NCBI GenBank assembly: GCA_963169815.1
Contig: CAUJDC010000007.1
Location: forward strand, 1-36,482
DNA: 36,482 nucleotides
Origin: Patescibacteria group bacterium
GTDB taxonomy: Bacteria > Patescibacteriota > Gracilibacteria > UBA1369
Direction: 5' to 3'
Positions 31,219 through 36,480 of the stretch are shown one piece after another. The position numbers and the translations under genes are program-made. Numbering within the stretch: position 1 is the first letter of the stretch; each line of letters begins with the position of its first letter. The notes below the pieces were generated by a model, which saw only the letters and a program-made list of their open reading frames with translations, ran no database searches and was not told the origin of the DNA.

Positions 31219-31956
31219 TTAAAGTAATTGCAATAAGCCGAGGCCAACTATCACTGCGGTCTCGGTTTTTAAAATATTTGGGCCGAGGTTGATTTTGGTT
31301 ACTCTTTGATTTTCTGAAAGTATGGTTTTTTCATTTTCGCTGAATCCCCCTTCTGGTCCGACCAAATAGTATCCTTGAGATATTTCTGATGTGGGCTTTG
31401 TCGAATTATCTCTTTCCATAGCCACTATTACAGGCCCTTGTGTGGCGCTCATGAAGACAGAGATACTGGCGTGTTGAAAGATTTTTGGGCAGATTGCTCG
31501 CTCTGATTGTTCGGCTGCTTCAATAATTATTTTCTCTAGACGATCTTGACGAAGTTGATGAGAAAAATTACTTAAGTCTGATTTGATTAAATGTATTTCT
31601 CGACAACCTAGTTCAACAGCTTTTTCTAAGATGAATTCTAATTTAGCTGGCTTATTAGGAAGGCAAATCGATAAGGAGATTTGTTTGGTAGAAGTTTCAG
31701 ATAGTTGGTGGAGGGATTCTAATGTAAGCCGCATCCCCTTCTTGCTTAGTTCAGAGATTTTAAAATGATACTCCTGATTGTTAGATTCGGAGTTATTGAG
31801 ATTCATCAGAATGATTTGATCGCCTGTCTTGGACCGAAACACATTAATAAGCTGATGTAAAATATCATCTTCAGTTTTGTCCAGAAAGTAGCTTGCGCCT
31901 GGAGAAAGTGCTGGCAATTGGCTGTGACGAAGGATAAAACGCTTGGTATTTGGCAT
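31219..31956 (-). CDS. rsmE: 16S rRNA (uracil-1498-N3)-methyltransferase
   Basis: 245 residues of the SPOUT superfamily. N-terminal PUA-like domain (to about 75), then the knotted methyltransferase domain with AVELGCREIHLIKSDLS, YYLVGPEGGFSENE and the C-terminal knot INLGPNILKTETAVIVGLGLL. These are the RsmE family hallmarks for m3U1498 formation on the 30S subunit. The start ATG at 31956 has no Shine-Dalgarno and diverges from rpsA, 121 nt away. The convergent clpC gene ends 1 nt from its stop, and its own last codons encode the clpC terminator on the opposite strand. Confidence 0.94.
   Translation of the reverse strand: MPNTKRFILRHSQLPALSPGASYFLDKTEDDILHQLINVFRSKTGDQIILMNLNNSESNNQEYHFKISELSKKGMRLTLESLHQLSETSTKQISLSICLPNKPAKLEFILEKAVELGCREIHLIKSDLSNFSHQLRQDRLEKIIIEAAEQSERAICPKIFQHASISVFMSATQGPVIVAMERDNSTKPTSEISQGYYLVGPEGGFSENEKTILSENQRVTKINLGPNILKTETAVIVGLGLLQLL
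31236..31271 (+). terminator. Intrinsic terminator of clpC, inside rsmE coding sequence
   Basis: AAGCCGAGGCC (31236-31246) pairs with GGTCTCGGTTT (31259-31269), 11 bp with two G-U pairs and a 12-nt loop, followed by T5 at 31267-31271. It begins 18 nt after the clpC stop and lies antisense to the last 15 or so codons of rsmE. Confidence 0.7.
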
Positions 31957-31993
31957 GATTTTGCTTGACTATTTAAATAAAAACCCTTAAATT

Positions 31994-32066
31994 ACTCGAG
32001 CCTGATGAGGATGGATTGACTAGTAGGCGTCCTATCTAAGGTTTTAATTATTAACCCTACTCGAGT
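31994..32066 (+). ncRNA. Structured, possibly pseudoknotted 5' leader of rpsA
   Basis: P1: ACTCGAG (31994-32000) pairs with CTCGAGT (32060-32066). P2, stacked directly on it: CCT (32001-32003), GAT (32004-32006) and AGGAT (32008-32012) pair with AGG (32039-32041), ATC (32034-32036) and GTCCT (32029-32033), with bulges at G32007 and at 32037-32038. The P2 loop carries TAGG (32024-32027), complementary to CCTA (32056-32059) in the P2-to-P1 joining strand, allowing a pseudoknot. P1 ends 11 nt before the start codon. No Rfam family is recognised. Candidate promoters are TTGGCA-17-TTAAAT (31950-31978), which would include P1, or TTGACT-16-TTAAAT (31965-31992), which would not. The TACTCGAG copies (31993-32000, 32058-32065) could instead be paired DNA operators. 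Confidence 0.5.
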
Positions 32067-32077
32067 CAAATTCAAGT

Positions 32078-33280
32078 ATGAGTAAAACTGCTACAACAGA
32101 TCAAGGTTTTCTGTCACAAATTCCAGATTTCAAGTTGCCTATGCCAGGTGATTTGGTGGAAGGTGAAGTAATTGCCATTTATAAAAATAAGATTCTCGTT
32201 GATATCGGTGGCATTGCTGTCGGTTTAATCAGCGGACGCGAAGCTAAGGACAGTGGCGACACTTTGAAATCACTACAAGTTGGTGATCAAGTTAGCGCTT
32301 ATGTAATCGAAGGTGAAAATGAAGAAGGTTATATCGTGATGTCTCTCAGAAAAGCTTCTCAAGAAAAAACTTGGAAGAAATTCTTGGACGCCTTTGAAAA
32401 AGGTTTGGTTATCGAAGTATCTCCGAACGAAGCTAATAAAGGTGGCTTACTTCTTGATATCGATGGCATCAAGGGTTTCATCCCTGTTTCACAATTGGCT
32501 CCTATGCATTATCCACGTGTAAATGGTGCTGACGCAAATATGATTTTGCAGAGATTACAGGAATTGGTTGCTATCAAATTCAGAGTTAAAATCATCAATA
32601 TTGACAAGGAAAACGGCAAACTGATTCTTTCAGAAAAAGCTGCTATGGAAGAACAAAGAGTATCTGCACTTGAGGATCTTAAGATTGGTGATACTGTTAA
32701 AGGAAAAATCTCAGGTGTGGTTAAATTTGGTATCTTCGTTGCTTTCAATGGCTTGGAAGGTCTCGTACACATCTCTGAAATTGCCTGGGGTCATGTTAAG
32801 AATCCTTCAGATTACGGCCGTCTCGGGCAAGAAGTTGATGTACAGGTTATCGGTATCGAAGGAGACAAGATCTCTCTTTCAATGAAGAGACTTACAGAAG
32901 ATCCATGGTTGGAAGCTGCTAAAAACTATAAGATTGGTACTATTATTGAAGGTGAAATTAATCGCATCACTCCATTCGGTGCATTTATCAAACTTAGCGA
33001 TGATATTAATGGTCTTATTCACGTAACTGAAATTTCTGCTGAAAAAGAAATTAAAGACCCATCAGAAGTTTTGAATGTTGGTGACAAGATCAAAGCAAAA
33101 GTAATTGCTATTGAACCAGATGAACATCGCGTCGGTCTTTCTATTAAAGCTTTAACTGCACCAACCGATGAAGAGGGTGAAAAAAAGGCTAAAAAGACTA
33201 AAAAAGAAGAGGATGTAGAGAGTGATTCAGAAGATGAAGACAAGCCAAAAAAAGTTGTTAAGAAAAAAGCTAGTAAGTAA
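32078..33280 (+). CDS. rpsA: 30S ribosomal protein S1 (four S1 domains)
   Basis: 400 residues with four S1 RNA-binding OB folds at about 20-90, 105-180, 205-272 and 287-360. The third and fourth carry the best RNA-binding consensus (KFGIFVAFNGLEGLVHISE, PFGAFIKLSDDINGLIHVTE). The last 35 residues are an acidic/lysine tail. E. coli S1 has six domains; four is common in Gram-positive and CPR bacteria. S1 recruits mRNA to the 30S subunit, which is relevant because most genes here lack a clear Shine-Dalgarno. In other bacteria S1 represses its own translation. Preceded by a structured leader and followed by a large terminator hairpin. Confidence 0.94.
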   Translation: MSKTATTDQGFLSQIPDFKLPMPGDLVEGEVIAIYKNKILVDIGGIAVGLISGREAKDSGDTLKSLQVGDQVSAYVIEGENEEGYIVMSLRKASQEKTWKKFLDAFEKGLVIEVSPNEANKGGLLLDIDGIKGFIPVSQLAPMHYPRVNGADANMILQRLQELVAIKFRVKIINIDKENGKLILSEKAAMEEQRVSALEDLKIGDTVKGKISGVVKFGIFVAFNGLEGLVHISEIAWGHVKNPSDYGRLGQEVDVQVIGIEGDKISLSMKRLTEDPWLEAAKNYKIGTIIEGEINRITPFGAFIKLSDDINGLIHVTEISAEKEIKDPSEVLNVGDKIKAKVIAIEPDEHRVGLSIKALTAPTDEEGEKKAKKTKKEEDVESDSEDEDKPKKVVKKKASK

Positions 33281-33402: not shown

Positions 33403-34176
33403 TTAGACAAAGCGAGCTTTGATTGGAGTCTGGCCATCTGTGTGCGCATAAAGGAATCCGTCTCGAGTGACAGTTCCACTGTGATCAAATGTTTTCAAAG
33501 TGGTTAGCTTGATCCGTCCATTAAAAGCAGAAACCGTAGTTTGAGTAGAATTATCCTCTGTGGTTGTAAAGGAGACACCAAAACCTTTTAGATCGGAAAT
33601 TAACTGATCTTGTTTGGCAGCAATTTGAGGAGTCCCAGTGATATTAACTAAATTACTTGAAGGATTTTTTCTTAACCAATTATAGATTTTGTAAGCATGA
33701 GGTGCTCCATTATAGGCGTAGAGACAATCATATAGATTAAAACTAGAAATTGACGACGGTATTTCTGGAGAGTAATTGATGAAGTTAAAGATATATGCTC
33801 CGCCACCGCTGTGAGCATCAAGAGCAATTGATTGAGGAGCTGAATTGGTAGCAGTTCTAACTCTGGATACAATGACTTCATGTATCTTTGTGACATTAGT
33901 TGGATTTGAGCTGAGATAATTTGGCCATTTGGATCCGGGAGGCGCAACAAAAGCTATTATTATGTTTCGTCCTGGTCTGGAAGCTCTTAATTCAGCAGAC
34001 TGTCTTTGCAAAAGTTTCGCTTCTGATAAGTGATTGGCCCCATTAGGGGTGGCGAAAATAATCAGCTCATGAGGTTTGTTTGGATCGAATTCATTACCAT
34101 AATCAAGAGAAACCAGAGCTTTTCCACCTTCAATTTCAAAAGTTTCGTACTTAGAAATTAATTCAGGCTTTTTTTT
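33403..34176 (-). CDS. Alpha/beta-hydrolase-like region, probably translated as a -1 fusion with the SGNH gene
   Basis: About 257 codons are open after a TGA at 34177-34179, with no ATG before residue 50; the first start-like codon is a TTG at 34011, inside the fold. The coding pattern begins at once (PELISKYETFEIEGGKALVSLDY, by position 34100-34170), then PHELIIFATPNG, a nucleophile elbow AHSGGGAY (Ser codon 33808-33810), and a possible catalytic His in KTFDHSGTVTRDG. This order fits an alpha/beta-hydrolase, without a closer family. The frame is -1 relative to the SGNH gene and the two meet at A9 (34169-34177, minus strand). One extra A in the mRNA, or a -1 ribosomal shift, would make a single 901-residue protein. 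A lost or miscalled base would look the same. Confidence 0.6.
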   Translation of the reverse strand, partial: KKKPELISKYETFEIEGGKALVSLDYGNEFDPNKPHELIIFATPNGANHLSEAKLLQRQSAELRASRPGRNIIIAFVAPPGSKWPNYLSSNPTNVTKIHEVIVSRVRTATNSAPQSIALDAHSGGGAYIFNFINYSPEIPSSISSFNLYDCLYAYNGAPHAYKIYNWLRKNPSSNLVNITGTPQIAAKQDQLISDLKGFGVSFTTTEDNSTQTTVSAFNGRIKLTTLKTFDHSGTVTRDGFLYAHTDGQTPIKARFV

Positions 34177-36107
34177 TCAGCCTCGTCAACAGTCTCCCAA
34201 ATTTCGGTAGCCTGGAATTTGCCATATTTGCCAGTTGCCTCCTGTTTATTGTGTTCTGTAAAAATAGCGGTGTAAGTTTTTCCTTGGAATTTGACAGTTT
34301 TCTTTGTGCCGTAAGCTGCTCCGCTAGCGATGAATTCTTGATTAACTTTGGAAGTAAACTCACCTAACTCTGGACTGTACTTAGCTGGTCTCATGCCACC
34401 AGTTTCGTATTTTGCTCCTGCTACTGCGCTACTTTCTGGTTTTTGATTAGGATCTGCTGGCTCGCCCATAATGCCTTGGATAGCTTTGGCCATGGCTGCG
34501 TAGCCTTCCGGATTAAGATGAACTCCATCTGGAGCCTTGTATGAAAAGGCCAATACATCTGAATTATTGTCATCAGCCAATCCCCCTTCAGATACTTTTT
34601 TATGTAGAGCAATTACTTTATATGGCCCGGCTTCTTGGCCGGCCATCTGTTCAATTTGTTGATTGACCCAAATTCTTATGGCATTTTTTTCTTCAAATTT
34701 TTCGGTCAAAGTAGGATAAGTGCTTTGCCCAAACGGAGGAATAGTACAATTGAAAACTTTTATATTGTACTTTTTGGCAATAGCCCAAATTTCTTTATAA
34801 TTATCTAAAATGCTTTTTTGAGTTGGATTGCCACCTAAATCATTAGTACCGCCGTCGATCAAAAGAGATTGATTGCGGTATTTTTCAAGATAACCACTTT
34901 GATCAAAATTGCGGATTTCGGCGAGTATGGTTGAAAGAGTCTTGCCGACCTTGGAGTGTCGCTCTACTTTGTTTGCACGAATCTTGCCTATTGCTCCCTC
35001 CATAAGAGAATCTCCAAATGCCAATAGTTGGTCTATACCTTCTGGAGATCCTTCTTTGGATTCTTTTGAGGCGCCTGCTTGTTCTGGAGAAGCTGGTGCG
35101 TCAGCATCTGATACCCTTTCAGAACTCTCGCCACCAGATGATCCACCACCGCTGTGTCCCACAGGACTTTTCCCACCAGATGATTCCCCTGCGCCTCCGC
35201 CTTTATGTTTTCCACCACCGCCGTGTCCCACAGGACTTTTCCCACCAGGCTGGACAGGCTTTATATCTGATTGGACGGTTGGTTCGACAACGACTGGAGT
35301 GTTTTGAACTTTAAGGAATTTATCCAGGCTGCTTGAAAATTTTTCTGGATCGCCGTCTAAAAGTTTTAAGGCATTGACTGCACGTGGATCTGTGGCTAAA
35401 TTTTGATGGTATTTCTCCAAGGCTTCAGTTACACGCTTGGCGTTTTCTTTGGTTGTCATGTGTAAAATAGTTTCAGGTCTCGCCAACTTTATGTCCTTGA
35501 ATTTTGGATTTTTGGATAAATCTTCCTGGAATCTTTCCAAATTGGCAGTCAGAGTTGCAATTGTATCGACTTTTTGTCTATCAACTTTAGTTTCTCCTTG
35601 TGGAGTTTTCAGGGTTACAATAACGGTGTTTCCCAAATCCTGTTTGTGTTTTTTGAGTTCTTCAATAAATTTCGCCTGATCAAATTTGCTTGGATCATCA
35701 ACGTAATTGAATAAATAAGTTGTTTTAGCGTTGGCTTCAGGTTTTTCTGGGAAAGTCACCTTGCCCATAATGTTTAGATCACCAAAAGTAAAAGGTTGCT
35801 CAACATTACCGTTAGTAATCTTAGCTTTTTGGTTATCTACTTTAAGACCAGTTAAGACTTTTGGTATTTCTGGGAGTTTGGCCTTGGCTGCTTCAGGTTT
35901 TTTGTCAGCCACAGCTGCCTGTTTACCTGAATCAATAGCAGCACTTTTTGCCATTTTTCTGCTTTCTGAAACTGCAGTTTCCATCAATTTGGCCACTTTT
36001 TCTTCGTCAGTTAGTTGCTTTGCTGCTTCACTCCCCTTCTCTACCTCAAATATCAGTCTCTTGGGGAGAAAATAGTTCGAGTTTTGATTATTGAGAAAGT
36101 GATTCAT
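34158..36107 (-). CDS. SGNH/GDSL hydrolase with long N-terminal region; reading frame ends just after an A9 run
   Basis: 649 residues from the ATG at 36107, which has AAGG just upstream; the TTG at 36125 is less likely. Residues 1 to about 280 are Lys/Glu-rich helices and a small beta domain (PFTFGDLNIMGKVTFPEKPEA). A Gly/Ser/Pro-rich linker (about 285-350) includes a duplicated GGKSPVGH unit. The SGNH domain at about 355-550 has block I FGDSL (Ser367), block III GGTNDL (Asn422) and block V DGVHLNP (Asp527, His530), so the triad is complete; it should be an esterase or deacetylase. A beta-rich tail (about 575-645) ends in EAEKKSLN. It overlaps the upstream 36088-36480 gene by 20 nt. No classical signal peptide is visible. 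Confidence 0.82.
   Translation of the reverse strand: MNHFLNNQNSNYFLPKRLIFEVEKGSEAAKQLTDEEKVAKLMETAVSESRKMAKSAAIDSGKQAAVADKKPEAAKAKLPEIPKVLTGLKVDNQKAKITNGNVEQPFTFGDLNIMGKVTFPEKPEANAKTTYLFNYVDDPSKFDQAKFIEELKKHKQDLGNTVIVTLKTPQGETKVDRQKVDTIATLTANLERFQEDLSKNPKFKDIKLARPETILHMTTKENAKRVTEALEKYHQNLATDPRAVNALKLLDGDPEKFSSSLDKFLKVQNTPVVVEPTVQSDIKPVQPGGKSPVGHGGGGKHKGGGAGESSGGKSPVGHSGGGSSGGESSERVSDADAPASPEQAGASKESKEGSPEGIDQLLAFGDSLMEGAIGKIRANKVERHSKVGKTLSTILAEIRNFDQSGYLEKYRNQSLLIDGGTNDLGGNPTQKSILDNYKEIWAIAKKYNIKVFNCTIPPFGQSTYPTLTEKFEEKNAIRIWVNQQIEQMAGQEAGPYKVIALHKKVSEGGLADDNNSDVLAFSYKAPDGVHLNPEGYAAMAKAIQGIMGEPADPNQKPESSAVAGAKYETGGMRPAKYSPELGEFTSKVNQEFIASGAAYGTKKTVKFQGKTYTAIFTEHNKQEATGKYGKFQATEIWETVDEAEKKSLN
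35142..35248. repeat. Two 38-bp direct repeats in the SGNH gene linker
   Basis: Copies at 35142-35179 and 35211-35248 differ at one base (position 11) and are 69 bp apart, an exact multiple of three. They encode the repeated GGKSPVGH(G/S)GGG linker. Copy number may vary by slipped-strand events without breaking the frame. Confidence 0.9.
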
Positions 36108-36480
36108 TGCCTTTTTTCTGAGCAATTGCCCAGTTTAAGAAATTGATTGATTGTCCTCCTAGGAATTCTTCGTACTGACCATTTTTATGCATAACGAACT
36201 CTACTTCTTGACCGAAAAACGCTTCTTTGTGAGAAACTTTAGCTTCTGTAGATTTGGCCATTTCCGCTTTTAAGTTTTCGATAATTTGCTGATATTTGGC
36301 TCTTTCTTCAGCAATTGGGTTCAATTTTGAGTCAATTTGTTCTTTGAGTTCCAGACGGGCTGTAAAGCTTTCGCGGACAGTCTGACTTACCTTGTTAAGA
36401 TTTTGCGCTTCCTTATCAGCAAAACTCTCTTTTGAATTAAGATTTTGATAAATTAGTCTGTTAGTTAATTTTTTGGTCAT
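36088..36480 (-). CDS. Small coiled-coil protein of unknown function
   Basis: 130 residues, starting at an ATG 2 nt from the window edge; the true start could lie further upstream. Residues about 25-80 form a charged helix with coiled-coil character (LELKEQIDSKLNPIAEE, YQQIIENLKAEM). The C-terminal 45 residues look beta-rich (GQEVEFVMHKNGQYEEFLGG). No signal or membrane segment and no recognised family. Its last 20 nt overlap the start of the SGNH gene, so the two are co-translated. Confidence 0.65.
   Translation of the reverse strand: MTKKLTNRLIYQNLNSKESFADKEAQNLNKVSQTVRESFTARLELKEQIDSKLNPIAEERAKYQQIIENLKAEMAKSTEAKVSHKEAFFGQEVEFVMHKNGQYEEFLGGQSINFLNWAIAQKKGNESLSQ

Follow-up and report, generated by a model that had tools for sequence, protein, structure and literature searches.

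The leader of Escherichia coli rpsA, the gene for ribosomal protein S1, folds into a defined series of hairpins. To our knowledge, S1 autoregulation has been little described beyond the Proteobacteria, and we know of no leader RNA with a demonstrated function in the Patescibacteria (CPR). In E. coli, free S1 competes with 30S-bound S1 and thereby represses the rpsA mRNA, which has no canonical Shine-Dalgarno (SD) sequence (PMC10931766). AU-rich strands and H-type pseudoknots are known ligands of protein S1 (PMC10931766, PMC7708055), and a pseudoknot obtained by SELEX is bound by S1 with nanomolar affinity (cited in PMC7708055). In the tisB mRNA, an H-type pseudoknot at the 5' end is needed for the binding of both S1 and the 30S subunit (PMC7708055).

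Here we describe the rpsA leader in a genome of “Candidatus Peregrinibacteria” (class Gracilibacteria, Patescibacteria; 1.09 Mb, 99.9% complete). The stretch that we analyzed, referred to below as the window, comprises 36,482 nucleotides of contig CAUJDC010000007.1. Profile searches identified the rpsA product through matches to Pfam PF00575 (4.6e-50, in three stretches) and to the NCBIfam family “30S ribosomal protein S1” (1.2e-89, under the equivalog cut-off). The gap of 121 nt between rpsA and the divergent RsmE gene contains the leader element, and a minus-strand promoter-like site falls within the rpsA leader. Farther downstream, a reading frame of 655 aa at 34158 to 36125 (minus strand) combines a GDSL lipase/acylhydrolase domain with repeated GGKSPVGHGGGG-like segments.

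Architecture of the rpsA leader

The comparisons described below indicate that the window's rpsA leader is an H-type pseudoknot of two crossing helices. We call these helix S1 and helix S2, names that are distinct from protein S1. The features of the region are as follows:

31219 to 31956, minus strand: RsmE, 16S rRNA m3U1498 methyltransferase family, divergent from rpsA
31965 to 31993, plus strand: predicted rpsA promoter from a consensus scan, with -35 box TTGACT (31965 to 31970), a 17-nt spacer and -10 box TAAATT (31988 to 31993)
31994 to 32000, plus strand: ACTCGAG, the 5' arm of a previously drawn outer stem (P1), whose partner at 32060 to 32066 overlaps helix S2
32001 to 32013, plus strand: helix S1, 5' strand CCUGAUgAGGAUG, with G32007 bulged; core at 32004 to 32013, CCU extension possible
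32014 to 32017, plus strand: loop L1, GAUU, with a length of 2 to 8 nt set by the extent of S2 pairing
32018 to 32027, plus strand: helix S2, 5' strand GACUAGUAGG, extendable by UU at 32016 to 32017
32028 to 32041, plus strand: helix S1, 3' strand CGUCCUAUC (32028 to 32036), with a UA bulge; AGG at 32039 to 32041 is an optional extension
32042 to 32055, plus strand: loop L3, A/U-rich single strand UUUUAAUUAUUAAC, the proposed contact of protein S1
32056 to 32067, plus strand: helix S2, 3' strand CCUACUcgAGUC, with C62 and G63 bulged; extendable by AA at 32068 to 32069
32068 to 32077, plus strand: spacer to the rpsA start codon, without an SD sequence
32078 to 33280, plus strand: rpsA, ribosomal protein S1, 400 aa with repeated S1 domains

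The core of helix S1 pairs 32004 to 32013 with 32028 to 32036, and the CCU and AGG extensions lengthen it to 32001 and 32041. Helix S2 has 10 to 12 bp (32016/18 to 32027 with 32056 to 32067/69) interrupted by a 2-nt bulge, and its 3' end lies 8 to 10 nt 5' of the AUG. L2 is 0 nt long, and L1 measures 2 to 4 nt when S2 has 10 to 12 bp. Because such an L1 is short for a complete S2, helix S2 may be limited to a 6-bp core; perhaps only AGUAGG/CCUACU (32022 to 32027 with 32056 to 32061) pairs in the knot, the outer pairs being optional. The hallmarks of an H-type fold (crossing helices, a short L2, and single-stranded L1 and L3) were found in the leaders that we compared, with a median L2 of 0 nt in the window's family and in Peribacteria and 4 to 5 nt elsewhere and with L3 lengths of 16 to 17 nt.

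A preliminary description of this DNA had drawn a 7-bp outer stem, P1, enclosing an 11-bp inner stem, P2, with a minor 4-bp knot between the loop and the joining strand. As letters, the strands that it named can pair: ACTCGAG (31994 to 32000) with CTCGAGT (32060 to 32066), CCU-GAU-AGGAU (32001 to 32012) with GUCCU-AUC-AGG, and UAGG in the loop (32024 to 32027) with CCUA in the joining strand (32056 to 32059). The drawn element also ends, as described, 11 nt before the ATG at 32078. P2 corresponds to helix S1 and the 4-bp knot to the core of S2, but the knot is not minor, being part of a helix of 10 to 12 bp.

The enclosing stem P1 was not supported. Promoter consensus predicts transcription of rpsA to start at about 32000, so that the 5' arm of P1 probably lies at or upstream of the start and P1, whose 3' arm competes with helix S2 for the same nucleotides, is probably absent from the RNA. 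In all three groups compared, a median of 6 to 8 nt separates the -10 box from the first helix, a spacing with which the window's promoter position agrees, and the distance from the end of helix S2 to the AUG has a median of 9.5 to 12 nt across leaders. Since both distances are short, the knot constitutes nearly the whole leader, extending in the window from the predicted mRNA 5' end to ~10 nt before the AUG. An alternative -35 box (TTGGCA, 31950 to 31955) would move the start to about 31985 and rescue part of P1; it is weaker and fits the relatives more poorly. P1 combined with an upstream AAAACC/GGUUUU pairing was the initial top solution for the window. It was dropped for two reasons: a bulge-tolerant search gave a better solution that matches the register of the relatives, and the strands involved are lost from the RNA given the position of the promoter. 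Separately, two members of the window's family (L006 and L007) carry a terminator-like inverted repeat (AAAGCCCC..GGGGGCUUUUU; AAGCCCUUACA..UGUAAGGGCUUUUU) overlapping the promoter as well as the first strand of the knot, which is possibly linked to transcription control.

To score pseudoknots, we used a scan that allowed bulges and compared each sequence with its dinucleotide shuffles (threshold, q ≤ 0.05). The window's knot was matched by 0.5% of shuffles of the 110-nt upstream (q = 0.005) and by 0.27% when the 78-nt predicted transcript was scanned (q = 0.0027). Of 31 ORF upstreams scanned in the window, none had a lower pseudoknot energy than that of rpsA, and only one, belonging to an ORF antisense to the 34158 to 36125 reading frame, had a lower q. 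Minimum free energy (MFE) folding gave the leader region no unusual stability (z = -0.89), a value that says little because MFE folding is unable to represent a pseudoknot.

Covariation and distribution of the pseudoknot

The comparison covered 103 nonredundant rpsA upstreams from the window's order and from Peribacteria and was later extended to other Gracilibacteria families and other Patescibacteria classes. Nearly all of the early rpsA upstreams showed, by eye, one topology in different letters. Peribacteria leaders share a near-invariant block, UGCUCGUGCRRG, so the columns flanking it could be compared independently of pairing. Their pair matrix contained one clean diagonal, with pairing at (-1,+2) in 94%, (-2,+3) in 97%, (-3,+4) in 97%, and (-4,+5) in 71% of leaders (permutation z up to 6.3), and duplexes with a leader's own partner strand had a mean of -10.7 kcal/mol versus -5.6 (standard deviation, 0.43) with swapped partners. 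In an alignment of 35 Peribacteria leaders (A1), helix S1 had compensatory changes in each of its nine pairs and helix S2 in two of its seven. Paired cells made up 84.6% of this alignment, versus 70.8% after shuffling and 34 to 49% in slid registers, and the Peribacteria covariation score was 0.429, versus 0.187 for shuffled and 0.09 to 0.21 for slid controls.

Leaders of the window's order were judged too divergent to align reliably, and the covariance model accordingly covers the Peribacteria form only. For the window's family and order, we used a strand-swap test in which the transcript start was set from the promoter alone and each leader's own strands were compared with those of other species. 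Own strands paired far better in helix S1 (Z = -15.1) and in helix S2 (Z = -17.1), with none of 2,000 permutations reaching either value, which indicates that both helices are under selection for RNA pairing in this order. The window's own S2 strand was the best of 61 for pairing its target, and its own S1-helix strand was the third best of 61. The preliminary description had proposed a covariation check on the rpsA upstreams of relatives, and its outcome is that pairing is kept in both helices. A DNA similarity search with the window's leader returned weak matches only, none at another rpsA, as expected from the sequence divergence of these leaders; the comparison holds no sister copy because rpsA of the same-genus genome is cut short at its N-terminal side.

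Because the scan constraints were tightened after an initial look, we compared groups with equally treated controls and used tests in which the choice of strands is independent of pairing. At q ≤ 0.05, the scan detected the pseudoknot in 12 of 12 leaders of the window's family, 91% of its order, 61% of Peribacteria, and 55% of other Gracilibacteria families, against a background of 3% for rpsA leaders in other classes of the phylum and 4% for upstreams of other genes. With these outside shares at background, the element is specific to rpsA among the tested genes and to the class Gracilibacteria, where it sits consistently in the 5' untranslated region of this ribosomal protein gene. Within the class, rpsA leaders of families f105 (UGA-recoded; L222, L227, L229, and L230) and f109 (L221 and L226) are mostly without a detectable pseudoknot and retain a UUUUAUUUUUUAA-like strand before the AUG; the element was possibly lost or replaced there.

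The Peribacteria covariance model had matches in 19 f18 genomes. In 18 of them there was one strong match, of 43 to 73 bits, and in the nineteenth one of 24.9 bits; every remaining match scored ≤23 bits. Ten of the strong matches and the 24.9-bit one lie directly upstream of already known rpsA coordinates, and the other eight all have an S1 reading frame downstream (several of these eight loci were already in the training set of the model, and at least L287 is new). The model did not detect the window. Peribacteria and the window's order share a topology and not a sequence, so it is topology, position, and gene that unite the two clades.

Proposed role of the leader in S1 synthesis

The comparison shows a conserved, covarying pseudoknot, its position in the leader, and its specificity for rpsA. 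We think it reasonably probable that the rpsA leader of Gracilibacteria is a ribosomal protein leader whose H-type pseudoknot provides S1 autoregulation; S1 binding, competition with the 30S subunit, and feedback on this mRNA are steps that we infer by analogy. In the proposed mechanism, 30S subunits would be recruited to the SD-less rpsA mRNA via their own S1 protein, which would bind the pseudoknot and the G-poor single-stranded L3 and unfold the knot. With S1 in excess, free S1 would occupy the same site and block initiation, closing a negative feedback loop, and the leader would thereby probably let the cell sense its free S1 level and adjust S1 production. L3 is 83% A+U and 6% G in leaders of the window's family and order, and 86% pyrimidine and 1% G in Peribacteria.

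The preliminary description was right that the window's rpsA has no SD, but this is not distinctive. An SD 4-mer precedes none of the 24 ORFs of ≥150 aa in the window and ~4% of the other genes in the order's loci (L001 to L115), and it occurs in 0 to 8% of Gracilibacteria rpsA leaders versus 32% of those in other Patescibacteria classes. With the SD nearly absent clade-wide, SD-lessness is not special to rpsA.

A clade without SD sequences could also employ the knot as a constitutive S1-dependent standby or recruitment element, aiding the initiation of an abundant protein without any feedback, as proposed for tisB, whose 5'-end pseudoknot is required for S1 and 30S binding (PMC7708055). Other abundant proteins in the same genomes are likewise without an SD, though, and the element is restricted, among the tested genes, to rpsA, which favors feedback over a general standby role; we regard the constitutive role as unlikely. 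It appears quite improbable that another protein or a ligand recognizes the knot, or that the knot chiefly shields the mRNA 5' end from decay, its link to S1 being only positional. The predicted transcript begins with the knot, which would suit a shield, but a generic stabilizer would be expected on more mRNAs, and other genes stand at the 4% background. The preliminary description had suggested an undescribed ribosomal protein leader or a riboswitch; covariation, gene specificity, and the lack of an Rfam match uphold the leader, but a small-molecule riboswitch is not favored because outside Peribacteria the topology alone is conserved, leaving little conserved sequence to form a ligand pocket. 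Finally, the CTCGAG repeats at 31994 and 32060 flank the leader as ACTCGAG/CTCGAGT copies, with promoter-like sites on both strands, and might be DNA operators for a repressor of divergent rsmE/rpsA promoters with no RNA element at all, but this is hardly credible, as the other family leaders do not show these repeats, whereas all 12 leaders of the family score for the pseudoknot, and as covariation of both helices reflects selection on RNA pairing.

Relation to described leaders

A search of the window against Rfam 15 found two tRNAs and no match on the leader, and a search of twelve rpsA loci at E ≤ 1 gave a single sub-threshold match, to nuoG, that lies outside the leader; the Rfam search likewise gave no sequence relation to the E. 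coli rpsA leader. We found no description of an S1 leader of such shape and no paper on Peregrinibacteria and pseudoknots in a literature of which most subscription papers are not searchable, so a prior description is possible. A survey of ribosomal protein leaders (PMC7247131) lists 20 candidates, none for S1/rpsA or a Patescibacteria lineage, and its main text contains no occurrence of “rpsA,” “bS1,” or “pseudoknot”; a 2024 survey of 50 genomes mentions neither rpsA nor Patescibacteria.

On balance, we lean slightly toward the view that Gracilibacteria control S1 by a class-specific, S1-sensing pseudoknot that makes up the whole rpsA leader and is distinct from the E. coli fold and from tisB-type knots. 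If true, a lineage hardly using the SD sequence would have a solution of its own to S1-RNA recognition. The covariation-supported knot also hints at a central place for S1-dependent initiation in these reduced genomes. The knot is a small (~70-nt), testable RNA for studying S1 recognition of structured mRNA in SD-poor bacteria, and the leader family can be modeled and deposited.

The candidates of Eckert and Weinberg 2020 (PMC7247131) are likewise supported by covariation and confined to one lineage and to ribosomal protein genes. The rpsA initiation region of gammaproteobacteria (PMC10931766; Boni 2001 and Tchufistova 2003, via PMC10931766) similarly combines a structured leader, no canonical SD, and AU-rich single strands, and E. 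coli rpsA shares the proposed competition between free and 30S-bound S1, with feedback demonstrated there and inferred here; its fold is set apart by description, since an H-type knot is absent from the account in the review PMC10931766. The tisB knot and the S1-binding SELEX pseudoknots (PMC7708055) are also H-type, with S1 as the likely partner, and that of tisB also lies at the mRNA 5' end. However, tisB is a toxin mRNA whose knot activates translation from ~100 nt upstream of the ribosome-binding site, whereas the Gracilibacteria knot lies right next to the start codon of rpsA, the gene for S1. The E. coli rpsO (S15) operator is, in the same way, a pseudoknot next to the start codon of a ribosomal protein mRNA, with S1 involved in its unfolding (PMC7708055, PMC10931766), but it differs in gene and ligand, and the rpsO site entraps the 30S subunit.
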